A stretch of DNA of 64,000 nt from Gammaproteobacteria bacterium (GTDB taxonomy: Bacteria > Pseudomonadota > Gammaproteobacteria > CAIRSR01), in assembly GCA_963575655.1 (NCBI GenBank), contig CAUYTY010000217.1, positions 1-64,000 on the forward strand. The letters are read 5' to 3'. A model generated the notes under the pieces. It was not told the DNA's origin. It ran no database searches and saw only the letters and a program-made list of their open reading frames with translations. This document shows, one piece after another, positions 32,969 to 46,814 of this stretch. Both the position numbers and the translations under genes were made by a program. Within the stretch, counting starts at the first letter, position 1. Each line of letters starts with the position of its first letter.

Positions 32969-33020
32969 TTAATTTCATGACCATCGCCCACAATGTGGCT
33001 GAGATTTTTGAGGTGTGAGG

Positions 33021-34250
33021 ATGGAGAAGTGGCAGCAACATAGCCTTGGAGAATGCCTGACTTTGATGTCGGGTGGAACACCATCGAAAGCCAGAAATGA
33101 TTTCTGGGGCGGTGATATTCCTTGGGTTTCTTGCAAGGACATGAAGACCGAGAGAATTCATGATGCCCAAGACCACCTAACGCCACTTGGTGCCAAAAAT
33201 GGAACAAGGCTTGTTCCTACGAACACAATTCTTTTTGTCGTGCGGGGCATGATTCTGGCCCGCGAGTTCCCCATTGCAATGACAAAGCACCTCGTCGCGT
33301 TCAATCAGGACTTGAAGGCTGCAAAACCTGCTGCCTTTATCGATAACGAGTTCTTATTTCAATGGCTCCGCGCCAACACCTATGAAATTCTTGGTCGCGT
33401 TGATGAAGCTGGGCACGGAACGACGCGCATTCAAACTGATCGTTTGCTGTCGCTCCCGATTTCCGTTCCACCGCTCCCCGTCCAACAACGCATCGCGGGT
33501 ATCCTCTCCGCCTACGACGACCTCATCGAAAACAGCCAGCGGCGCATCAAGATTCTGGAGAAGATGGCGCGTTCCCTCTACCGCGAGTGGTTCGTCCACT
33601 TTCGTTTTCCCGGACATGAGAATGTGCCGCACGTTTCCTCACCACTGGGGGAGATTCCAAGGGGGTGGGAGGTAAAATCCATTCAGCAGTTCGGCACGGT
33701 CATCACGGGAAAGACCCCGAGCAAAGCCAACGCAGATTTCTACGGTGACGACATGCCGTTCGTAAAGACGCCGGACATGCACGGGAATATATTCATCCTC
33801 GGCACGAGTGACTGCCTATCGACGGCCGGCGCAGAATCGCAGGCGAACAAGACGCTGCCCGCCGGTTCAATCTGCGTGAGTTGCATCGGCACGATTGGCG
33901 TTGTCTCCATCACGACCGAGGACTGCCAGACGAATCAGCAAATCAACTCCGTGGTGTTGGCGAACACGATCAGCCGGGAGTTCCTGTTTCTCCGTCTCCA
34001 AGATTCAAAGCAGACGCTGGAGAATCTCGGCGCGAACGGCGCGACGATGGGCAACGTTAACAAGGGCAAGTTTGAGGCGATGGAAATTATCTGCCCCTCG
34101 GATGACGTGCTCGCCCATTATCATCGGCTCGTTAAGCCGATATTCTCAGAGATTCTCAGCCTGTTCCGCCAAATCCAAAACCTCCGCCGCACCCGCGACC
34201 TTCTCCTCCCCCGCCTGCTGTCTGGCCAGATCGACGTGGGAAGTTCGTGA
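33021..34250 (+). CDS. hsdS: type I restriction-modification specificity subunit
   Basis: 409 residues with two target recognition domains (about 5-150 and 215-380), each followed by a conserved helix (LPVQQRIAGILSAYDDLIENSQRRIKILEKMARSLY and LFRQIQNLRRTRDLLLPRLLSGQIDV) that spaces the two half-sites. The first TRD opens GECLTLMSGGTPSKARNDFW and the second GTVITGKTPSKANADFYGDD, showing internal duplication. It defines the bipartite DNA site. ATG at 33021 after GTGTGAGG. Confidence 0.92.
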   Translation: MEKWQQHSLGECLTLMSGGTPSKARNDFWGGDIPWVSCKDMKTERIHDAQDHLTPLGAKNGTRLVPTNTILFVVRGMILAREFPIAMTKHLVAFNQDLKAAKPAAFIDNEFLFQWLRANTYEILGRVDEAGHGTTRIQTDRLLSLPISVPPLPVQQRIAGILSAYDDLIENSQRRIKILEKMARSLYREWFVHFRFPGHENVPHVSSPLGEIPRGWEVKSIQQFGTVITGKTPSKANADFYGDDMPFVKTPDMHGNIFILGTSDCLSTAGAESQANKTLPAGSICVSCIGTIGVVSITTEDCQTNQQINSVVLANTISREFLFLRLQDSKQTLENLGANGATMGNVNKGKFEAMEIICPSDDVLAHYHRLVKPIFSEILSLFRQIQNLRRTRDLLLPRLLSGQIDVGSS

Positions 34251-34266
34251 CCCATGGGAGCGTTAA

Positions 34267-34824
34267 ATGCCGATTCCTGATTTTGACCACAACCTTGTGC
34301 TACCACCGCATCTTGGCGAACCAACAAAACCTGAGCACTTATCACCGTATCCATGTACAACGGTGGATTTATGTCGGCGGTTCGGAAATACGCCTGACCG
34401 ACGGTTATTACTCAAAAAATTTTTGGATTTCCGAAAACGGTTAAACGATGAAGGACTTATTAATGGTTTTCATTGGCTTGACGGAAGTTTCTTGGAAGAT
34501 ATTGAAACGAGAGAAAACCGATCACCTAAGGATATCGACGTGGTAACGATTTATTGGGGGTATCATCTTGATTTTCAATCCAACCTAATAATAAAGTTTC
34601 CATAGTTTGCAAACCCAACCCTTTCAAAATCAACTTATTCATTAGATCATTATCCATTTGATGCCGGATATAGCCAAATATTGACCTTGGAACAAGCACG
34701 TTATTGGATCTTGCTCTTTTCGCACAATCGGCTTGGGGTGTGGAAGGGAATGCTAAAAATTGACTTGAATACCCCGAAAGAAGATGAATTAGCCCGCCAA
34801 CAACTGGGAGAAACCAAGCTATGA
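34267..34824 (+). pseudogene. DUF6932-like gene with one in-frame amber codon
   Basis: Opens PIPDFDHNLVLPPHLGEPTK and has WLDGSFLEDIETRENRSPKDIDVVTIYWG, a G-S...D-x-D arrangement like a nucleotidyltransferase core in DUF6932 proteins. A TAG at 34603-34605 interrupts it, but the same frame continues with FANPTLSKSTYSLDHYPFDA, RYWILLFSHNRLGVWKGML and IDLNTP to a stop at 34824, all conserved-looking. A single base change could explain the stop. It overlaps the next gene by four bases (ATGA), so translation of the partner may be coupled to it. Confidence 0.65.
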
Positions 34825-35768
34825 GTATGCGAACTCAGCGGGACTTCCTAAAAATACAACTGCTAGAGATTCAAAGAGTAAAGGAACTGGTTGCTGACCA
34901 TCCAATTATGTCGATCTCATTCAGGGAACAAGAACAAGCAATCATCGAACAACTCGCCGTTTTGCCTATTGTAGCCAAGGAGGCAAAGGTAATTCTGCTT
35001 TTCTCTGGTGATCCTGTTCATGGTTCACTCGGTATTGATGCGATTTTTACCGCGCATGTCTTGGAACCTTTCCAAAATATGGTGATGGCTGATTATGCGG
35101 ATCGCTGGCATGGCGTGGTTGGAAGTCGAGGTCGTCATCGTGGAGAAGAAGTTTCTCGCCTTTTGCTGACCGGATTACCTCATGGTTCGTTCGGGTTGGA
35201 ATTGAGCCGGGCTAATACTACAACCGATGATTTATTTGAAGAAGACCAGCTTGCGGACACACTGAGCCATATCACAAAACTGGTCGAGTCCTCTGGGAAA
35301 AGCGATGAGGACTTCTCCACGGAACTTGATCAGACCGCGCCACGGGTCATCCAAAATTTGAAGCAGTTCTTGGAAATTATTATGAAAGGAAAATCTGGAC
35401 TTACTTTAGTAAGTGGTAACTTTCGATGCTCAATGAATCAACATCAGCTTAGTGAAGCCTTTAATCGCGTGGCGGGAACAACGACAAATGATGAAATAGT
35501 CGAACTTTCAGGTATCTTAAAAGGAGTTTTGTTGGAATCCTGGAAGTTTGATTTTCTGACAGATGATAAGGTGAGGATTGCCGGCAAGATTGATGATGAT
35601 TTAACCGAGGACGAGGTTATAGCTATGAACACTATTTTTTTCAATAATCGGTGCCTGGCAACCATATTGAAGACAACCGTATTATTCAAAAATGGCCGCG
35701 TCCGTACCACCCATATACTCAAGAAAATTGCGGCGGTAGTTGACCAGCGCGTCGGCACGACCGTTTAA
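34821..35768 (+). CDS. unknown protein paired with the DUF6932-like gene
   Basis: 315 residues, not recognised. There is a helical N-terminus (LKIQLLEIQRVKELV, SFREQEQAIIEQLAVLP), a beta-rich middle with VILLFSGDPVHGSLGIDAIFTAHVLEPF, and a C-terminal part (KVRIAGKIDDDLTEDEV). Coupled by ATGA to the upstream DUF6932-like frame. The last 28 or so codons overlap, in antisense, a PIN-domain relic, so the C-terminus (VVDQRVGTTV) may not be native. Could be the partner of a nucleotidyltransferase-based module; no function assigned. Confidence 0.55.
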   Translation: MSMRTQRDFLKIQLLEIQRVKELVADHPIMSISFREQEQAIIEQLAVLPIVAKEAKVILLFSGDPVHGSLGIDAIFTAHVLEPFQNMVMADYADRWHGVVGSRGRHRGEEVSRLLLTGLPHGSFGLELSRANTTTDDLFEEDQLADTLSHITKLVESSGKSDEDFSTELDQTAPRVIQNLKQFLEIIMKGKSGLTLVSGNFRCSMNQHQLSEAFNRVAGTTTNDEIVELSGILKGVLLESWKFDFLTDDKVRIAGKIDDDLTEDEVIAMNTIFFNNRCLATILKTTVLFKNGRVRTTHILKKIAAVVDQRVGTTV

Positions 35769-35920
35769 CGCGGCTTCCAGAACCATCTCGTCGGCTGGAT
35801 CGCGCAGTTGCGGCCGCCACAGGTAATACAGATGCACCGGCTCGACGAACAAACACAAGGCGTCGAGAAAGGCTTGAGTCTGCGCTACGCCGCGCCCGCT
35901 GGTCAGATCGACGTGGCTGT
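35682..35920 (-). pseudogene. PIN-domain toxin relic
   Basis: Minus-strand translation gives SGRGVAQTQAFLDALCLFVE, then PVHLYYLWRPQLRDPADEMV and LEAALNGRADALVNY, the C-terminal half of a common PIN-family toxin; DPADEMVLE holds catalytic acids. No start codon or N-terminal Asp region is found, and the end after NYRRNF diverges. It is a fragment overlapping, in antisense, the 3' end of the preceding gene. Confidence 0.65.
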
Positions 35921-35923
35921 CAT

Positions 35924-35952
35924 CTGACTGTTTCGTTTATTTCGTTTATAAT
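35924..35952 (+). promoter_or_regulatory. promoter with tandem repeat for the antitoxin-PIN pair
   Basis: CTGACT (35924-35929), 17 bases, then TATAAT (35947-35952): a good sigma-70 promoter 40 bases upstream of the antitoxin start. A direct repeat TTTCGTTTAT TTCGTTTATA fills the spacer and -10 region, a plausible operator for autoregulation by the helix-turn-helix antitoxin. Confidence 0.6.
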
Positions 35953-35991
35953 AGGTTTTGCTCCAGATTCGATGAAACAGTGAGGGATGCC

Positions 35992-36444
35992 ATGAATGCC
36001 GTAAAGCTCGCCCATATACCAACACCACAAGATATTGAAGAAGCAAGGGATTCCAGCCGGACCCTATCAAAATACGCTCATGCTAACCGGGTGCGGATGT
36101 CTCTGCGGGCCAGCAATGGAGAGTCGGATGATTTGATCTTGCCAGGTCATGTACTTCAGATTTTGTTGGGTGTGCTGGCGGAGATGGCGAAGGGTAATGC
36201 CATCAATCTAATACCGATTCACCAGGAAATCAGCACGCAAGAAGCAGCGGATCTGCTCAATATCAGCCGACCTTTTCTGGTGGGTTTGCTGGAAAAGGGC
36301 GAGATGCCGTTCCGCAAGGTCGGTTCACATCGCCGTATTTTTTTCAAGGATGTGCTGGACTACAAGGAACGCATCGACGCGCAACGGAACCAGGCCCTAA
36401 ACGAACTGACGGCACTCTCGCAGGAAGAACAGATGGGGTATTAA
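35992..36444 (+). CDS. antitoxin with excisionase-type helix-turn-helix
   Basis: 150 residues. The N-terminal part (MNAVKLAHIPTPQDIEEARD, SRTLSKYAHANRV) is typical of antitoxins of PIN toxins. The C-terminal half has an excisionase/MerR-like DNA-binding motif (ISTQEAADLLNISRPFLVGLLEKGEMPFRKVGSHRR). Start at ATG 35992 rather than GTG 35980. It precedes the PIN gene by two bases. Presumably represses the promoter at 35924. Confidence 0.75.
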   Translation: MNAVKLAHIPTPQDIEEARDSSRTLSKYAHANRVRMSLRASNGESDDLILPGHVLQILLGVLAEMAKGNAINLIPIHQEISTQEAADLLNISRPFLVGLLEKGEMPFRKVGSHRRIFFKDVLDYKERIDAQRNQALNELTALSQEEQMGY

Positions 36445-36446
36445 AC

Positions 36447-37013
36447 ATGGGCAAATTTTCAGTTATCTAGGATGCCTGTGTTCTCTACCCAGCGCCACTA
36501 CGTGATTGTCTGGTGCGTTTGGCATTGACCGATCTCTTCAATGCACATTGGACTGATGACATCCATGCGGAATGGATGGGCGCATTACTGAGAGAAGGCA
36601 AATTCTCAGAGGAAAAGTTGCTCCGCGTTCGTGATCTGATGGATGCCCATGTACGCGACGCCAAAGTCACGGGTTATGAGTTATTGATCAATAATTTACA
36701 GCTTCCCGACCCTAATGACAGGCATGTGCTGGCTGCCGCCATACGTTGTAACGCCGACGCAATCGTGACTTTTAATTTGAAAGACTTTCCATCTGACGCA
36801 TTGGAGCCTTTCAATATAGATGTCATCCACCCGGACGATTTTATTTATTATCAGATCGAGTTAGCTCCGGCGCTATGTTGCCAAGCCTTGCGTGATCAAC
36901 GACTGGCATTAAAAAGACCAAGTTTGTCCGTTGATGAATTTCTATCCGTATTGTTAAAACAACAATTGCCACAAACGATCTCCAAGCTCCGCGAGTTCAT
37001 CGAATTCCTTTAA
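36447..37013 (+). pseudogene. PIN-domain toxin with an in-frame amber codon
   Basis: Frame from ATG 36447 reads MGKFSVI, then TAG (36468-36470), then DACVLYPAPLRDCLVRLALT and on to the stop at 37013. In homologues this residue is usually Tyr (VxYDACVLYP), so one base change made the stop. The rest is intact: DIHAEWM, LPDPNDRHVLAAAIRCNADAIVTFNLKDFP with the acidic residues. A shorter product could start at GTG 36513 but would lose the first catalytic Asp. Likely an inactivated toxin with its antitoxin kept. Confidence 0.75.
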
Positions 37014-37018
37014 GCCCA

Positions 37019-40000
37019 ATGACCCACCCCTACACCGAAAGCCAACTGGTCGAACAGCCCGCTATTGAGTTATTCGCGGCGCTGGGCTGGCAAACGTTCG
37101 CAGCGGGAGACGAGGCTTTCGGGAAGGGAGGCATCCTGTCCCGCGAGACGAGCGGCGAGGTGGTCTTGGTGGAGCGCTTGCGCACCGCCTTGGTGCGCTT
37201 GAATCCTGCCCTGCCGGGGGAAGCCATTACCACCGCCGTGGACGAATTGACCCGTGACCGTTCGGCGATGAGCCTTGCGGCGGCCAACCGGGAGACCTAC
37301 CTCTTGCTCAAGGAAGGCCTCCAGGTTGCCGTGCCGGATCGGCGTCATGGCGGACAGAAGATCGAGCGGTTGCGGGTGTTCGATTGGGAACGCGCGGAAA
37401 ACAACGAGTTCCTACTGATTAGCCAGTTCAGTGTCACCGGCGTGCTGTATACCTGCCGTCCGGATTTGGTGGGATTCGTGAATGGCCTGCCGGTGGTGGT
37501 CATTGAACTGAAAAAGCCCGGCGTTCCCACGCGTACCGCCTTCGACGAGAACCTCAAGCACTACCAGCAACAGATCCCGCAACTCTTTTGGTTCAACGCA
37601 CTGCTCATCGCCAGCAACGGCACGGACAGCCGCGTTGGCTCGCTCACCGCCGATTGGGAGCGGTTTTTCGAGTGGAAGCGCATCGAACGCGAGGACGAGC
37701 CGCGCCGGGTATCGCTGGAGGTGATGATCCGGGGAACGTGCGACAAGACCCGGCTGCTCGACCTGCTGGAGAACTTCACCCTGTTTTCGGAACACAAGGC
37801 GGGGCTGGTGAAAATCATCGGGCAGAATCACCAGTTCCTGGGGGTGAACAACGCCATTGCCTCGATGCTCGCGGCGCGCCAGTCCGGCCATGGCCGAGGC
37901 GGGGTGTTCTGGCAGACCCAAGGCAGCGGCAAGAGCTTTTCGATGGTGTTCTTCGCGCAAAAGGTCTTGCGGAAGTTGCCGGGCAACTGGACGTTCGTGA
38001 TCGCGACCGACCGCGTCGAACTGGACGACCAGATCGCCAAGACCTTCAAGGCGTGCGGCGCGGTTAGCGCGGCCGAGGGCGACACCTGCCATGCCACGAG
38101 CGGCGCGCACCTGCGGGAGTTGTTACGCGGCAATCATCGCTACGTCTTCACGCTCATCCACAAGTTCCAGACCCAGGAGATGCTTTGCGACCGGCCCGAC
38201 GTGATTGTGCTCTCCGACGAGGCGCACCGCAGCCAATACGACACCCTGGCCGTGAACATGCGCGCCGCCTTGCCCAAGGCGCTGTTCCTGGCCTTCACCG
38301 GCACCCCGCTGATCGCCGGAGAGGAGCGGACCAAGGAGGTGTTCGGCGCTTACGTCTCCATTTACGACTTCCAGCAATCCGTCGAGGACGGGGCTACCGT
38401 TCCGTTGTTCTACGAGAACCGCACGCCGGAATTGCGGCTGGTGAATCCAGACTTGAACGAGGATATTTACCGGCTGGTCGAGGAGGCGGAACTTGACTCG
38501 GAACAGGAAGCCAAGCTGGAGCGGGAACTAGGGCGGCAGTACCACATCCTCACCCGCGACGACCGGCTGGAAAGCGTGGCGCGGGACATCGTGCGGCATT
38601 TCCTTGGGCGCGGCTTCATCGGCAAGGCGATGGTGGTTGCCATCGACAAGGCGACCGCGCTCAGGATGCACGACAAGGTGCGGAAGCACTGGGCGGCGGA
38701 GACCCAACGGGTGCGGGAGGAATTGGGGCGTCATATTCTCCCCCGCGAGATGAGAGAGGAGCTTCAAGAGCGTCTGCAATTGCTACAGACCACCGACATG
38801 GCGCTCATTGTATCGCCCGGCCAAAACGAGGTAGAGCAGATGAAAAAACTCGGCCTCGATATTGGGCAGCACCGGCAGCGGATGAAGGATTCCGATCCAG
38901 GACTGGATGAAAGATTCAAGGACAGCAACGATCCCTTGCGGATCGTGTTTCTCTGCGCCATGTGGCTGACCGGTTTCGACGCGCCAAGCTGTTCCACGGT
39001 GTATCTCGACAAGCCGATGCGCAATCACACGTTGATGCAGACCATCGCGCGGGCCAACCGGGTGTTTCCCGGCAAGCACAGCGGCGTGATCGTGGATTAC
39101 GCCAATGTCTTTCTGTCCCTCGAAAAAGCGCTGGCCATCTACGGCAAGGGGAAAGGGGGAGAGAATCCCGTCAAGAATAAACAACAACTCGTTGCCGAGT
39201 TGCGCGATGCCGTCGAGAAGGCGACGGCGTTCTGCGCAAGTCAGCGGGTCATGCTCGGCGCTATCGAACAATTGCCGACGGGAGATTTGGAACGATTGAA
39301 TCTCGTGAATGACGCGGTGGATGCACTGATCTCTCCCGACCCGTTACGACGCGAGTTTCTGGGGCATGAGCGCCTCGTCGTGACGCTCTACCATGCGGTG
39401 AAGCCGGAACCGGTGGTATTGGCGTTTTTTGCCCGCATTGCCTGCCTATCCGCCATTGCGGATGCCATCCGCGCCAAACTGAATCCAGGCCCGGCGGACA
39501 TTTCCGCGGTGATGGCGAGCATCAATCAATTACTGGATGCCTCGATCACCGGCGTGGATATGCCCACCGAATCGGCCAGAGCGATCGATTTATCGAAGAT
39601 TGACTTCGAGGCGCTTGATCGGCGTTTCAAGAAATCCAGGCACAAGAATACGGATTTGGAGGTTCTCAAGGCCGCCATTCGCGCGAAACTTGAGGAGATG
39701 ATCCGGGTAAACAGGACGCGCATTGATTTTCTGGAAAAATTCGAAGCGTTGCTTGGATCCTACAACTCTGGCAGCCGCAACATTGATGATTTATTCGAGG
39801 AGCTATTGCAGCTCAGCCGTACCTTGAGCGAGGAACAGCATCGTCACATCCGCGAAAACATGAGCGAGGAAGAATTGGTCATTTTCGATATTCTGACCCG
39901 CCCTGTCCCCGAATTAAGCAGTGAGGAACGTGTGGAAGTCAAGAAAATTGCCCGTGAACTTCTGGAAAAGATTAAACAGCTACTCGTTATCAACTGGCGT

Positions 40001-40150
40001 CAAAAATCGGCAGCCCGTGCGAGGCTCAGGCTCGTTATCGAGAATACGCTGGATGAAGGCTTGCCAAGGGCTTACTCGCCACCACTGTATCAACAGAAGT
40101 GTGGCACGTTATTCGAGCATTTCTATGAGCATTACGCGGAGGCGGCTTAG
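37019..40150 (+). CDS. hsdR: type I restriction endonuclease/translocase subunit
   Basis: 1043 residues. Nuclease motif PDLVGFVNGLPVVVIELKKP (Asp near 148, E-x-K near 162-164), then SF2 helicase motifs: Walker A QGSGKS (about 300-305), DEAH (about 400-403), FTGTPL, and motif VI MQTIARANRV. A helical C-terminal region binds HsdM. It translocates DNA and cleaves far from unmodified sites. All key motifs are intact, so the R-M system appears functional in spite of accessory insertions between its genes. Confidence 0.93.
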   Translation: MTHPYTESQLVEQPAIELFAALGWQTFAAGDEAFGKGGILSRETSGEVVLVERLRTALVRLNPALPGEAITTAVDELTRDRSAMSLAAANRETYLLLKEGLQVAVPDRRHGGQKIERLRVFDWERAENNEFLLISQFSVTGVLYTCRPDLVGFVNGLPVVVIELKKPGVPTRTAFDENLKHYQQQIPQLFWFNALLIASNGTDSRVGSLTADWERFFEWKRIEREDEPRRVSLEVMIRGTCDKTRLLDLLENFTLFSEHKAGLVKIIGQNHQFLGVNNAIASMLAARQSGHGRGGVFWQTQGSGKSFSMVFFAQKVLRKLPGNWTFVIATDRVELDDQIAKTFKACGAVSAAEGDTCHATSGAHLRELLRGNHRYVFTLIHKFQTQEMLCDRPDVIVLSDEAHRSQYDTLAVNMRAALPKALFLAFTGTPLIAGEERTKEVFGAYVSIYDFQQSVEDGATVPLFYENRTPELRLVNPDLNEDIYRLVEEAELDSEQEAKLERELGRQYHILTRDDRLESVARDIVRHFLGRGFIGKAMVVAIDKATALRMHDKVRKHWAAETQRVREELGRHILPREMREELQERLQLLQTTDMALIVSPGQNEVEQMKKLGLDIGQHRQRMKDSDPGLDERFKDSNDPLRIVFLCAMWLTGFDAPSCSTVYLDKPMRNHTLMQTIARANRVFPGKHSGVIVDYANVFLSLEKALAIYGKGKGGENPVKNKQQLVAELRDAVEKATAFCASQRVMLGAIEQLPTGDLERLNLVNDAVDALISPDPLRREFLGHERLVVTLYHAVKPEPVVLAFFARIACLSAIADAIRAKLNPGPADISAVMASINQLLDASITGVDMPTESARAIDLSKIDFEALDRRFKKSRHKNTDLEVLKAAIRAKLEEMIRVNRTRIDFLEKFEALLGSYNSGSRNIDDLFEELLQLSRTLSEEQHRHIRENMSEEELVIFDILTRPVPELSSEERVEVKKIARELLEKIKQLLVINWRQKSAARARLRLVIENTLDEGLPRAYSPPLYQQKCGTLFEHFYEHYAEAA

Positions 40151-40810: not shown

Positions 40811-42361
40811 ATGACCAAGCACGTTGTTGTTGATCCGATGACTCGTATCGAGGGTCACCTCCGTTTTGTTACTCGCATCAAGGATCAGATAGTCACCGAC
40901 GCCCACTGTACTGGCGATATGTTCCGCGGCATTGAAAAGGCATTAATCGGACACGATGCCCGCGTCGCCCAACAGGTAACACAGCGGGTGTGTGGAGTGT
41001 GTCCCAATGGACACGCTGAGGCCGCCTCCCTAGCCTTGGAAAATGCAATGGGCCTTAAGCCTAATGCCAACGGCCAACGCTTGCGCAATCTTATTGTTGG
41101 TTCCTACCAATTGCAGGATTACTTGCTGCACTTCTATACCCTGTGCGCCTTAGATTTTATTGATATTGCTGCCGTATTGAATTACCAAGGTAGCGATGCT
41201 GCTCTACTCAAGGTTCGCGATTGGGTTGCCGGGGAGACGAAGAGCGCCAAGGTATTTCCCGCCGCACCATTTCTGCCACGCTACGAGGCAGCCTACAGCA
41301 CTAATCAGGAACTCAATTTCAGCGCCATTCGTCACTATCTTCAGGCGCTGCCGGTAATGGCCAACCTTCACAAGATGGTGGCCCTATTTGGCGCCAAGGC
41401 CCCGCACCCGGTGGCTATTGAGGCGGGTGGTGTCACCACGATGCCGACTCTGGAAAAGATTACCCAATTTCGTTCTTGGCTGAAGGGGGCCGCCGCTTTT
41501 ATTCGCGGACCTTTTCGCGACGATGTAGTGGCGGTGGCCCAAGCCTTTCCTAGTTACTTTAAGGAGGGGCGGGGCTACGGCAATTTTCTTTCCTATCCGT
41601 TTCTCCCCGACGTGAATGGTGAGCATCACAGCTTTGTGGGCGGCGTCACCATTGGCGGAAAGTACAGCCCACTGGATATCAACAAAATCACCGAAGATAC
41701 GCTCTATTCCTACTACAAGGACAGCCCGGATCGGAACGTAAAGCCACTGAGTAGCACCATCCTCACTCCCATTGATTGGAACGAATATCAAGCGGAGCGG
41801 AAAAGAACTGATGGCAAATACAGTTGGACGCGGTCACCGCGCTACGGCGGTGAGGTAATGGAGGTGGGACCCATGGCGCGAGTGGTAAATACCTACCACG
41901 CGGGGACCAATCCACAGCTCACCTCGCTGGTGGACGGATTCAATCAAGCGCTGGGGGTCACCCTGGAGGACTACAACTCGGTGATGGGCCGTCATCTGGC
42001 CCGACTGGTCAACGCCCTGCTGATTCTGGAACGGGTGGAGCGCGACATCGACGAGCTAGAGCCCGGCGTACTCGGCTTCGTGGAGCGTGAAGTACCCCGT
42101 AATGCCCGTGGTGTTGGACTCACCGAGGCCACCCGAGGCGCCCTCGGCCATTGGATCGAGACCGACGACAAGGGTTATATCCGCAACTATGAGCTAATCG
42201 TCCCCACCACCTGGAACATCTCACCGCGTGACGCAAGCGGCAGACCCGGCGCGGTAGAGCGGATGCTAATCGGCACCCATATCAGCGACCCGGAAAATCC
42301 CATCGAGCTGGCCCGCATTGTTCGTTCCGCAGACCCCTGCATTGCCTGCTCCGTCCACTAA
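40811..42361 (+). CDS. [NiFe]-hydrogenase large subunit without C-terminal extension
   Basis: 516 residues; holds the Ni-Fe active site. It opens with VVVDPMTRIEGHLR. The N-terminal metal motif is RVCGVCPNGH (Cys 61, Cys 64), with MFRGIEKALIGHD before it. The C-terminal motif is DPCIACSVH (Cys 510, Cys 513), and the stop follows His 516 directly. Nearly all periplasmic uptake hydrogenases are made with a C-terminal peptide that an endopeptidase removes after this His; sensory group 2b enzymes lack it. The large subunit precedes the small one, the reverse of usual order. No hyp maturation genes or protease are in the window. Confidence 0.92.
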   Translation: MTKHVVVDPMTRIEGHLRFVTRIKDQIVTDAHCTGDMFRGIEKALIGHDARVAQQVTQRVCGVCPNGHAEAASLALENAMGLKPNANGQRLRNLIVGSYQLQDYLLHFYTLCALDFIDIAAVLNYQGSDAALLKVRDWVAGETKSAKVFPAAPFLPRYEAAYSTNQELNFSAIRHYLQALPVMANLHKMVALFGAKAPHPVAIEAGGVTTMPTLEKITQFRSWLKGAAAFIRGPFRDDVVAVAQAFPSYFKEGRGYGNFLSYPFLPDVNGEHHSFVGGVTIGGKYSPLDINKITEDTLYSYYKDSPDRNVKPLSSTILTPIDWNEYQAERKRTDGKYSWTRSPRYGGEVMEVGPMARVVNTYHAGTNPQLTSLVDGFNQALGVTLEDYNSVMGRHLARLVNALLILERVERDIDELEPGVLGFVEREVPRNARGVGLTEATRGALGHWIETDDKGYIRNYELIVPTTWNISPRDASGRPGAVERMLIGTHISDPENPIELARIVRSADPCIACSVH

Positions 42362-42373
42362 AGAAACGCCGCC

Positions 42374-43300
42374 ATGAATCCCTCCCGTCGCGAATTCCTC
42401 CAACGCTTATGGCAGGTGATCGTTGCTACCGGCGCCTCCCAGTTTTTTAGCTTTGAGGAACTGCTGGCCGCTCCACTAGCCTCTAACCGACCCAAGGTCC
42501 TGTGGCTGCACGGTACCTCCTGCTCCGGTTGTTCGACCTCCTTCCTCGACATTGAACAGGTATCGGTGCCGGAGATCCTTACAGAGTTCGTAGACCTGGT
42601 ATTCCACCCGGATATCTCCCTGGCCACCGGTGAACAGGCAATGCAGATACTCGAACACATGGCCAGCAAGGAGGAGGGTTTCATCTTCGTGTTAGAGGGC
42701 GGCATCCCCGTGGAAATGCCGCACGCCTGCATCATGGGCGAACGACCGATGACAGAATGGGTGGACCGTATGGCCCGTCGTGCCGGAGTGGTGGTGGCGG
42801 CGGGTACCTGCGCCGCTTTGGGCGGCGTCCCGCGCATGAATGGTACCGTCACCGGTTCGATGACCTTACGTGAGTTCCTGATCCACCAGGGAATTAAAAA
42901 ACCGCTGGTGGCATTGCCCAACTGTCCGATGAAACCCGAACATTTCCTCTACGTTCTGCTGCACCAACTCAAGATGGGACGACTGCCCGAATTGGATGAA
43001 TTGCTCCGGCCCCACAAATTTTTCAATCACACCATTCACGAGCGCTGTATCTATTACGCAGATTTCCAGGAGCGACGCTACGCCGAACGCATTGGTGACG
43101 AGGGTTGTCTGCTTAAACTCGGCTGCCAGGGACCAGTAACTCGCAACGACTGCATGCTCTTTGGCCACAACAACAATACCAATACCTGCATCCGCGCCGG
43201 TCATCCGTGCGTGGGTTGTGCTGGTGAGCCTTTCCCGCGCCAGATTATGTTCCACGCCTACGGTGACCGTCGGGCAATCCAGAAAGATTTCTCGATCTAG
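42374..43300 (+). CDS. [NiFe]-hydrogenase small subunit with Tat signal
   Basis: 308 residues. A twin-arginine signal ([20 protein letters not shown]) indicates folded export to the periplasm with the large subunit. Proximal cluster ligands: Cys 50, 53, 146, 184 ([28 protein letters not shown]). Distal: His 222, Cys 225, 245, 251. Medial: Cys 260, 272, 279, 282 ([15 protein letters not shown]); Cys 272 stands where common uptake enzymes have Pro, predicting [4Fe-4S] rather than [3Fe-4S]. There is no C-terminal membrane anchor, and no cytochrome b partner follows; instead a chemoreceptor does. Confidence 0.9.
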
Positions 43301-43314
43301 GAAAACCATGTGCT

Positions 43315-45129
43315 ATGTACAATGCGCACGCCCCGAGGCAATTCGATAGTAATGTAGTTAAGGTCAGTCACTCTATTTTGTTTCGTACCTTGCTATTTTT
43401 GATAGCAGGCGTTTTGGTGGTGGCTGCTTTAGTGTTGGTGGTCGCTTGGGGCTATTTGGATGCCCAGGCGCATCGACGCGCCCACAGTACCGGGGATGGT
43501 TTACTTACCACCTCGATCAAAAACACGCAGGAATCCATCAATAAGGGACAACGTCACAGCTTCCAACGCGCTATCGATGATTTTGCCCAACTTGATGGGG
43601 TGATCGATGTTGCTCTATTTTCTCGTTTCAACTTCATGGTGTATCGCTCTGGGCTGGTCAGTGTTGGTATGCCGTTTGTACATGATGAGAAAGGGCAGCT
43701 CAAGCGCAATCCTAATGAAGAACGATTTATTAAGAGCAATGGGCGTTTTCAGCGTGAGGATTGGAATCTGCGCGACGCAATTGATCAGCCAGCGGCGCAA
43801 AAGCACGTTCAGGAAAAAAAGACCGCTGGCGAATTATGTAGCAATTGCCACTACCCAATGCCCGAAGGCGCCGATTTCAATACGCCCTCACGGCGATTTA
43901 TCTACGAGAGCCCGGACTACACGGATTTCTATTACGCTATGCCGGTGGAGGGCGAGTGTGTGGTCTGCCATACCCATTGGCGCGCGGGGGAGAGTAGCGG
44001 TTATCTGCGGGTGCGCCTGAATACTCGCCCTTTTACTCATCAGCGCAACGAGACTCTACTAGGAATGGCTGGGGCCATTGTCGGGGTATTAGCGCCAGTA
44101 ATTTTGATTGTGGTGCTGATCTTTCGTTTCGTGGTGTTTAAGCCGCTTGGTATATTGGACGCCAATATCACCGACCTTACCCGTGGCGAGGGCGACCTAA
44201 CCCATCGTCTGGTAGTACGGCAGCACAACGAGATGGGACGAATCGCCGGGAGCCTCAACGGTTTCATCGAAAAGGTGCAAACCATCGTAATTGCCATCAA
44301 GGAACGTATGGCCCCTTTGGGGGGACATGCCGACGAATTATTTCAGCGTAGTGAGATCCTGTTGAATAACAGCACGCGCATCGCGGATGCCCTCGGCCAG
44401 ATCAGTACCGAAACCGGACACCTGCGCGACTCGGCCGGGCAAGTAACATCATCGGTGGAGGAAGTCCACGCTAGTCTGAATTGGGTGGTGCGGACCGTAA
44501 CCACGGGTGAACAGATCTCCCGCGACAACCGCCGCCTAAGCCAGGAGGCCATGACCCGCATGGACACCTTCGGGGGCAAGATGGCGAACGTAACCACCAC
44601 CTCCCGCGAAGTGGTGAATCTGCTCGACCAGATCAAACGCATTGCCGATCAGACCAATCTATTGGCCCTCAATGCGGCGATTGAAGCCGCACGGGCTGGT
44701 GAATCAGGTCGAGGCTTTGCGGTAGTAGCGGAGGAGGTACGTACGCTGGCCGGTAAGACCACCACGCTGACCGACACCATCGACCGCTCCTTGGCCTCGT
44801 TTACCAGCGAGATTGGCAGTGCCGAATCGATCATGCGTGAGACTACCGAGGTTATGCACCAAGTTTCCTCGGTCTCGACCCAAGGTGAGCAGGAATTGGC
44901 CAGTGCCGTGCAGCGTATCCACGCCCTGGAACAGGCATTTGCCAGCGTGCAGACCGCCACCAATGAGCAGCACCAAATCACCAGCAAGATGGTGCAACGC
45001 ATTGACAATACCACCGCCCAAGCCACCGACATCCGCGACATCAGCAACGCCATTGCCAATCTCGCCCGTAGCGTACAGGAGGCGGTGAATAGAGTGGAAA
45101 CGGAGACCTCCAAATTTCATACTGGCTAA
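43315..45129 (+). CDS. methyl-accepting chemotaxis protein with periplasmic dihaem c sensor
   Basis: 604 residues. TM1 is about 22-47, the periplasmic domain about 48-247, TM2 about 248-275, then HAMP (about 275-330) and the cytoplasmic signalling hairpin with the invariant tip [20 protein letters not shown]. The periplasmic domain carries two CxxCH haem c motifs: CSNCH (175-179) and CVVCH (215-219). Haem-c chemoreceptors sense redox state or gases. The gene starts 14 bases after the hydrogenase small subunit, so it is almost certainly co-transcribed. The hydrogenase could reduce these haems when hydrogen is present. No C-terminal CheR-binding pentapeptide is seen. Confidence 0.9.
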
Positions 45130-45180
45130 AAGAATCCCGAAGGGTTGCAAAACCAAGATGGTTTCCGGTCAGATACAAAT
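44858..45180 (+). repeat. duplicated segment, first copy (3' end of chemoreceptor)
   Basis: This stretch, starting at ACCAAGTTTCCTCGGTCTCG and running about 50 bases past the chemoreceptor stop, is repeated with about 5% change at 46469-46791. The copies are in direct orientation with an IS91-type relic and a DUF29 gene between them. Confidence 0.85.
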
Positions 45181-46268: not shown

Positions 46269-46468
46269 AATTTCCTACAGCAACAATCGAAAAATTGAGA
46301 AGGACAAAATCGGTTTATGAGCCAAGATAATGAGGCATTTTCCCGTATTGTTATAAAATATGGATTCAAACTCGAAGTGCAACTCTTGAATTAACAGTTG
46401 GTTGCGTGAGCAAGGTACTCTAGTTTCTGTATCAGACGAATCTTCGCGGCATCAAGGGACCATAAAAA

Positions 46469-46740
46469 ACCAAGTTTCCTCGGTCTCGACCCAAGGTGGG
46501 CAGGAATTGGCCAGCGCCGTGCAGCGTATCCACGCGCTGGAACAGGCATTTGCCAGCGTACAGACCGCCACCAACGAACAGTACCAAATCACCAGCAAGA
46601 TGGTGCAGCGCATTGACAATACCACCGCCCAAGCCGCCAATATCCGCGACATCAGCAACGCCATTGCCAATCTCGCACGTAGCGTACAGGAGGCGGTGAA
46701 TAGAGTGAAAACGGAGACCTCTAAATTTCATACTGGCTAA
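46469..46740 (+). pseudogene. second copy of the chemoreceptor 3' end
   Basis: Encodes the last 85 or so residues of the chemoreceptor ([20 protein letters not shown] to ETSKFHTG) with a few substitutions. No membrane, HAMP or signalling-tip sequence precedes it. An ATG-less extension to 46402 opens the frame but adds unrelated residues. It cannot function as a receptor. Confidence 0.85.
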
Positions 46741-46814
46741 AAGAACCCCGAAGGATTGCAAAATCAAGACGGTTTTCGACCAGACACAAACTATAATTTA
46801 TTGTGGAGCACACC

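Follow-up and report, generated by a model that had tools for sequence, protein, structure and literature searches.

The regulatory [NiFe]-hydrogenases HoxBC and HupUV (group 2b) serve as the input to a signalling protein, the kinase HoxJ; their large subunit is tail-less, they are cytoplasmic and lack a twin-arginine (Tat) signal, and the kinase is likewise cytoplasmic and haem-free. HydDB further lists an [FeFe] group C2 named 'chemotactic (putative)', thought to sense H2 and to act via a methyl-accepting chemotaxis protein (MCP), and a [NiFe] group 2c (PMC5037454). Here we analyse 64,000 nucleotides of a gammaproteobacterial assembly (GCA_963575655.1, contig CAUYTY010000217.1, positions 1 to 64,000; the window), in which a [NiFe]-hydrogenase large subunit (LSU), its small subunit (SSU) and an MCP with two haem c motifs are encoded together at 40811-45129. 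The host is a purple-sulfur-type bacterium. Judging from sequence features, we put the probability at about 0.74 that this unit senses H2 in the periplasm, most likely by handing electrons from the hydrogenase's distal iron-sulfur (FeS) cluster to the haems of the receptor.

The window unit shares with HoxBC/HupUV the tail-less large subunit and, on the proposed reading, the use of a hydrogenase as input, but it is Tat-exported, its partner is a transmembrane haem c receptor and its output is mostly chemotaxis. The Tat signal and a tree position apart from HoxC place it outside group 2b. It does not belong to [FeFe] group C2 either, being a [NiFe] enzyme by Pfam; the catalytic protein of C2 is unrelated, and the passage on that group in the HydDB paper describes no periplasmic haem receptor (PMC5037454). 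The first-pass annotation of this DNA had treated the known H2 sensors as cytoplasmic regulators of gene expression. As to location this is right for HoxBC/HupUV, but it leaves out the two further HydDB groups, and H2 sensing via MCPs is thus not wholly new. We found no prior description of a hydrogenase–haem receptor unit in the open-access literature, while subscription journals could hold one, and as far as that literature shows the [NiFe] design with a periplasmic haem receptor is new.

The Desulfovibrio enzymes HynAB and HysAB (groups 1a/1b) have the same fold, Tat signal, FeS relay and lack of a membrane anchor, and the NiFeSe type also has the cysteine found here at the medial cluster position. 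However, they carry a C-terminal extension, have the gene order small-large and use soluble cytochromes as partners, whereas the window unit has no extension, the order large-small and a receptor as its probable partner. GSU0582, GSU0935, DcrA and the sCache_heme (DUF3365/Tll0287) proteins resemble the receptor in having a periplasmic Cache/PAS-like c-haem domain in an MCP. The window receptor differs from them in its two haem motifs instead of one, its dedicated hydrogenase partner and the lack of a Tll0287 match above cut-off.

Composition and cellular location

The three genes are co-directional on the plus strand, with intergenic gaps of 12 and 14 nt (Table 1). Both catalytic cysteine pairs of the LSU (RVCGVC and DPCIAC) and the FeS cluster ligands of the SSU are intact, and the cysteine pairs of the NiFe site together with the large-subunit profile make this a group 1-like [NiFe] hydrogenase. 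Its closest PDB relatives are periplasmic Desulfovibrio [NiFe]/[NiFeSe] enzymes, with whose Tat leaders the RREFL motif of the SSU aligns. By hydropathy the SSU has no transmembrane segment, hence no C-terminal membrane anchor. In the receptor, the ~200 residues between the two transmembrane segments contain both CxxCH motifs, which are therefore periplasmic. Pfam, motifs and coordinates agree with the first-pass annotation, which had read here a complete large and small subunit followed after 14 bases by a two-haem MCP, and had put the hydrogenase and the receptor haems on the same side of the membrane. Three points were absent from it: the LSU without a maturation peptide, the large-small gene order and Cys272 at the medial-cluster position of the SSU. 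Cys272 is invariant in an alignment of 10 members of the SSU family. Because it matches the cysteine of NiFeSe enzymes and not the proline of NiFe enzymes, the medial cluster is predicted to be [4Fe-4S].

It had also been argued that the lack of a cytochrome b points to sensing. Among the genes of the operon there is indeed neither a cytochrome b nor a quinone-linked subunit. Periplasmic group 1a/1b hydrogenases donate electrons to soluble c-type cytochromes, however, so taken alone this absence is weak evidence; soluble partners may be encoded outside the operon.

The AlphaFold2 model of the sensor domain (pLDDT 84, pTM 0.82) finds, in Foldseek, extracytoplasmic Cache/PAS domains (WalK, CitA) and the c-haem chemoreceptor GSU0935, at modest TM-scores of ~0.25-0.6. 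Strands 159-167 and 184-193 flank its second CxxCH, as expected for sCache_heme/Tll0287, where the motif falls between the last core strands. The weak similarity of one-haem MCPs spans this second motif as well, and the first CxxCH is therefore an addition. No Pfam family matches the two-haem domain above cut-off; the PF11845 (Tll0287) profile gives sub-cut-off matches in 5 of 17 members, the best with E 0.013. Homology to multihaem cytochromes (MtrC, c7) was rejected, since Pfam and PDB matches were limited to the CxxCH stretch and stayed below cut-offs.

Co-occurrence of the hydrogenase and the two-haem domain

In 84,980 species genomes the SSU alignment detected 18 loci. They occur in Gammaproteobacteria (two Thiocystis species, Thiospirillum, an uncultured Chromatium, Sedimenticola, a metagenome-assembled genome (MAG) of Halorhodospira and others including a Methylococcaceae MAG), in SAR324, in Sulfurimonas and other Campylobacterota, and in Desulfurivibrio. 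The order LSU-SSU-receptor, which the first-pass annotation had suggested searching for, recurs in a congener and in distant lineages and prevails among the loci; elsewhere the receptor lies upstream or on the opposite strand. The congener keeps the identical three-gene unit at 82% LSU identity and the unit is also found in other families, so the arrangement is not due to chance.

The two-haem domain is present once at full length in each of the 18 genomes (203-299 bits), all further matches scoring at most 53 bits. In the window's class (369 genomes), exactly three genomes have the domain and the same three have the SSU (at least 60% identity); the next-best SSU has 37-38% identity, and 77 genomes have some hydrogenase SSU. 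Six of 249 Campylobacterota genomes have an SSU above 490 bits (next 195), and five of the six also carry the domain. In another campylobacterotal genome (G511) the domain stands at a contig end, where any partner would fall beyond the contig. Sensor matches of 20-32 bits in Campylobacterota were rejected as members; they are one-haem MCPs with no hydrogenase near.

The association outlasts the loss of linkage. In Thiospirillum jenense the LSU, the SSU and the two-haem MCP are all present at three separate loci, and in the uncultured Chromatium the LSU is apart from SSU and MCP. The lone SSU gene of Thiospirillum (L028 5669-8927) lies downstream of genes for a histidine kinase (GAF/HisKA_3) and a response regulator of the LuxR type, which may be one more link to signalling, and the separated LSU gene of Chromatium (L053 103-4039) is followed by that of a 789-aa membrane multi-PAS protein. 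The output attached to the two-haem domain varies. It is found on several unlike MCP signalling regions (the window type; HAMP types in Thiocystis violacea, L032 and L035), on an Hpt-HATPase CheA-like kinase in Desulfurivibrio and two relatives, on a PAS-HisKA-HATPase-REC-REC-Hpt hybrid kinase in Halorhodospira and, in SAR324, on an output without domain assignment. With a constant input and changing outputs, the domain looks like a sensor module. CheA was detected in every one of the 20 genomes examined for it; the window's genome alone gave 11 matches.

Conserved gene order alone can reflect vertical inheritance, but that the genes stand together by chance or shared descent and act separately is hardly credible in view of the patchy spread (Gammaproteobacteria, Campylobacterota, Desulfobacterota, SAR324) with rearranged gene orders, the single domain per genome, the co-retention of separated loci as in Thiospirillum, and the LSU tree and sister hydrogenase–receptor pairing described below.

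Loss of the maturation tail and the one-haem sister version

Group 1 hydrogenases have a C-terminal extension of ~15 residues on the large subunit, which is cut off by a protease once nickel has been inserted. Unlike this norm, the window LSU has no extension after its DPCxxCxxH motif. The same is true of all 34 haem-receptor-linked LSUs collected, whereas 27 of 27 other group-1 LSUs compared have a tail of 14-20 residues. HoxC of the H2-sensing regulatory hydrogenase was also checked and is without a tail. Previously, tail-less large subunits have been listed for groups 2b, 2d, 4c, 4e and 4g and none for group 1; in 2b and 2d tail loss is a trait of H2-sensing enzymes (PMC7294309). A missing HycI protease would be weak proof of protease-free maturation, since 16 of 18 genomes checked encode HycI-family proteases, which presumably serve other hydrogenases; in the other two, Sulfurimonas (G380) and Thiospirillum (G369), none was detected. 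In Sulfurimonas (L037 3156-5847, L042 3254-6249) the unit adjoins HypE-like and HypX/HoxX-like maturation genes.

A sister version of the unit exists in Desulfobacterota. An LSU search of 59 genomes and weaker sensor-domain matches in 297 gave 13 loci at which a tail-less LSU and an SSU stand next to a single-CxxCH membrane receptor; nine of these LSUs are complete. Most of the 13 were found via the receptor and the number is no measure of how often tail-less LSUs lack one, but all four tail-less LSUs found by the LSU search alone had a receptor. The one-haem receptors examined that have significant Pfam matches are MCPs. Three genomes (G386, G828, G914) carry both versions.

In the LSU tree, the 25 LSUs from genomes with the two-haem domain form one clade (100/100), to which five one-haem LSUs are sister (99/96) with four more branching nearby. 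The tailed group-1 LSUs form a clade of their own (100/98). HoxC falls outside the two-haem clade on a long branch and its placement is unsure. The tree is midpoint-rooted and does not fix the order of tail gain versus loss.

Proposed mechanism and alternatives

Sequence shows the parts and their compartment, their conservation and co-occurrence, the tail loss and the output swaps. From these we infer the signal (H2), the transfer of electrons to the haems and a direction of the behavioural response. The Tat-exported hydrogenase would bind and oxidise H2 in the periplasm, and the electrons would pass its three FeS clusters, the distal one last, and then reach the two c-type haems. Reduction of the haems, or a change in their ligands, may alter the Cache-like sensor domain, and this change would be transmitted through the second transmembrane segment and the helices below it to CheA activity and so to flagellar rotation. 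Relatives would use this sensor domain to drive a CheA-like kinase or a hybrid histidine kinase. The haem potentials of the chemoreceptor domains GSU0582 and GSU0935 are -156 and -251 mV (PMC8396549); by analogy, potentials of this order should be within reach of reduction by H2. Of the SSU positions conserved across the 25 receptor-linked two-haem SSUs, only six are altered in a campylobacterotal genome that lacks the receptor (G447), and three of these (Y228, Q232, E233) follow the distal-cluster ligands. We predict this face, on the strength of that one exception, as a candidate contact site with the receptor.

The most serious alternative is that the enzyme is an uptake hydrogenase which reduces a pool of soluble c-type cytochromes for respiration or photosynthesis, and that the receptor reads the redox state of this pool, i.e. 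indirect energy taxis. The nearest PDB relatives, the Desulfovibrio periplasmic enzymes, do use soluble cytochromes. Campbell et al. 2009 (PMC2628731) described GAmH_0978-0979 of Nautilia profundicola, probably a member of the receptor-linked family, as a NiFeSe-like uptake hydrogenase that is soluble in the periplasm. Several observations weigh here against a sensor. G447 has a tail-less LSU-SSU of the same clade and no haem receptor, the one clear exception in our data; the pair perhaps serves a molybdopterin oxidoreductase, so the enzyme can serve another partner. In that genome (L188 5316-7803) LSU-SSU follows genes which we named by eye as molybdopterin oxidoreductase, ferredoxin-like subunit and TorD-like chaperone. 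In three genomes (G336, G380, G383) the receptor-linked SSU is the sole SSU detected, so there is no evident group-1 uptake enzyme for H2 sensing to serve; there the enzyme may have a metabolic role, or other classes of hydrogenase may be present. Tail loss does not in itself mean sensing, as tail-less groups 4c, 4e and 4g show that such hydrogenases are not all sensory (PMC7294309). Finally, related one-haem sCache_heme domains fused to signalling modules have been reported to bind nitric oxide (NO) (PMC12889525).

We nevertheless regard the uptake explanation as unlikely. It does not account well for one sensor domain per genome that is tied to the tail-less clade and not to tailed hydrogenases, for co-retention of unlinked genes or for the loss of the tail. 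Furthermore, the window's genome has on another contig (C186) a second, tailed hydrogenase of the Isp type with its maturation protease; the organism is thus equipped with a conventional H2 enzyme in addition to this unit. Homologues that consistently lack the receptor and have a cytochrome b, named in the first-pass annotation as evidence that would count against a sensor, were not what we found, G447 being the only clear receptor-less case.

The report on NO binding leads to a further alternative, in which the receptor senses NO or O2 and the hydrogenase is a reductase that keeps the haems ferrous for gas binding. One-haem DUF3365/Tll0287 domains are part of the Cache superfamily as sCache_heme, according to the same 2026 preprint, in which 'hydrogenase' is not mentioned (PMC12889525), and DcrA is described as a redox and O2 sensor (PMC8396549). 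However, dozens of one-haem MCPs have no hydrogenase nearby, so such receptors need no dedicated reductase, and where a receptor is coupled to one particular tail-less hydrogenase, H2 is the signal to expect. We consider this explanation quite improbable.

The reading of the unit as a periplasmic H2 sensor, already put forward in the first-pass annotation, is strengthened by the near-strict co-occurrence, the co-retention when unlinked, the swapping of output modules and the tail loss. We also find it fairly probable that such periplasmic sensory [NiFe] hydrogenases form a widespread class, present in four or more bacterial lineages, whose members signal H2 by feeding electrons into transmembrane receptors with one or two haems and so control taxis and kinases. 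If this is true, the periplasm has a sensory [NiFe] class of its own, with an enzyme that informs a receptor through electron transfer, and there are sensors among the hydrogenases now annotated as soluble periplasmic uptake enzymes. Vents, sediments and microbial mats are structured by gradients of H2, and the open-access literature is almost silent on bacterial steering by H2. The unit offers a concrete receptor system in cultivated organisms, e.g. Thiocystis, Sedimenticola selenatireducens and Desulfurivibrio.

Features and neighbouring sequences

Table 1. Features of the hydrogenase–receptor unit (window coordinates) and the one-haem loci
Feature	Position	Strand	Basis
[NiFe]-hydrogenase LSU, 516 aa	40811..42361	+	Pfam PF00374 (NiFeSe_Hases), 448 bits
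N-terminal active-site CGVC, LSU residues 61-64	40991..41002	+	sequence; aligned with PDB relatives
LSU C-terminal DPCIACSVH, stop codon directly after	42332..42361	+	sequence; invariant tail-less end in family
Hydrogenase SSU, 308 aa	42374..43300	+	SSU Pfam domains; PDB alignment
Tat twin-arginine motif RREFL, SSU residues 5-9	42386..42400	+	RR invariant in family alignment
12-residue SSU segment with distal-cluster His/Cys ligands and conserved stretch, candidate docking face	43037..43072	+	conserved in receptor-linked SSUs
SSU Cys272 replacing medial-cluster Pro	43187..43189	+	alignment with Desulfovibrio NiFeSe (Cys) and NiFe (Pro)
MCP, 604 aa	43315..45129	+	Pfam MCPsignal PF00015, 108 bits, residues 405-563
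Receptor transmembrane segment 1, approximate (about residues 20-50)	43372..43449	+	hydropathy
Periplasmic two-haem sensor domain, Cache/PAS-like fold	43444..44052	+	AlphaFold2, Foldseek
First haem c motif CSNCH, residues 175-179, the extra one	43837..43851	+	C175, C178, H179 invariant
Second haem c motif CVVCH, residues 215-219, common to one-haem receptors	43957..43971	+	C215, C218, H219 invariant
Receptor transmembrane segment 2, approximate (about residues 248-275)	44056..44139	+	hydropathy
Cytoplasmic MCP signalling domain	44527..45003	+	Pfam PF00015
One-haem Desulfobacterota loci: L158, L159, L160, L165, L166, L172, L173, L175, L176, L117, L118, L120, L124			

Upstream of the unit, at 33015-40150, are genes which, judged by their sequence, resemble a type I restriction-modification system with specificity and motor subunits. 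The 3' end of the MCP gene (44858-45157) is repeated at 46469-46768, 1611 bp downstream, with 94% identity. The repeat yields a detached open reading frame for an MCP tail (46402-46740). The interval between the MCP gene and the repeat contains a fragment of a Y2-type transposase and a DUF29 gene.

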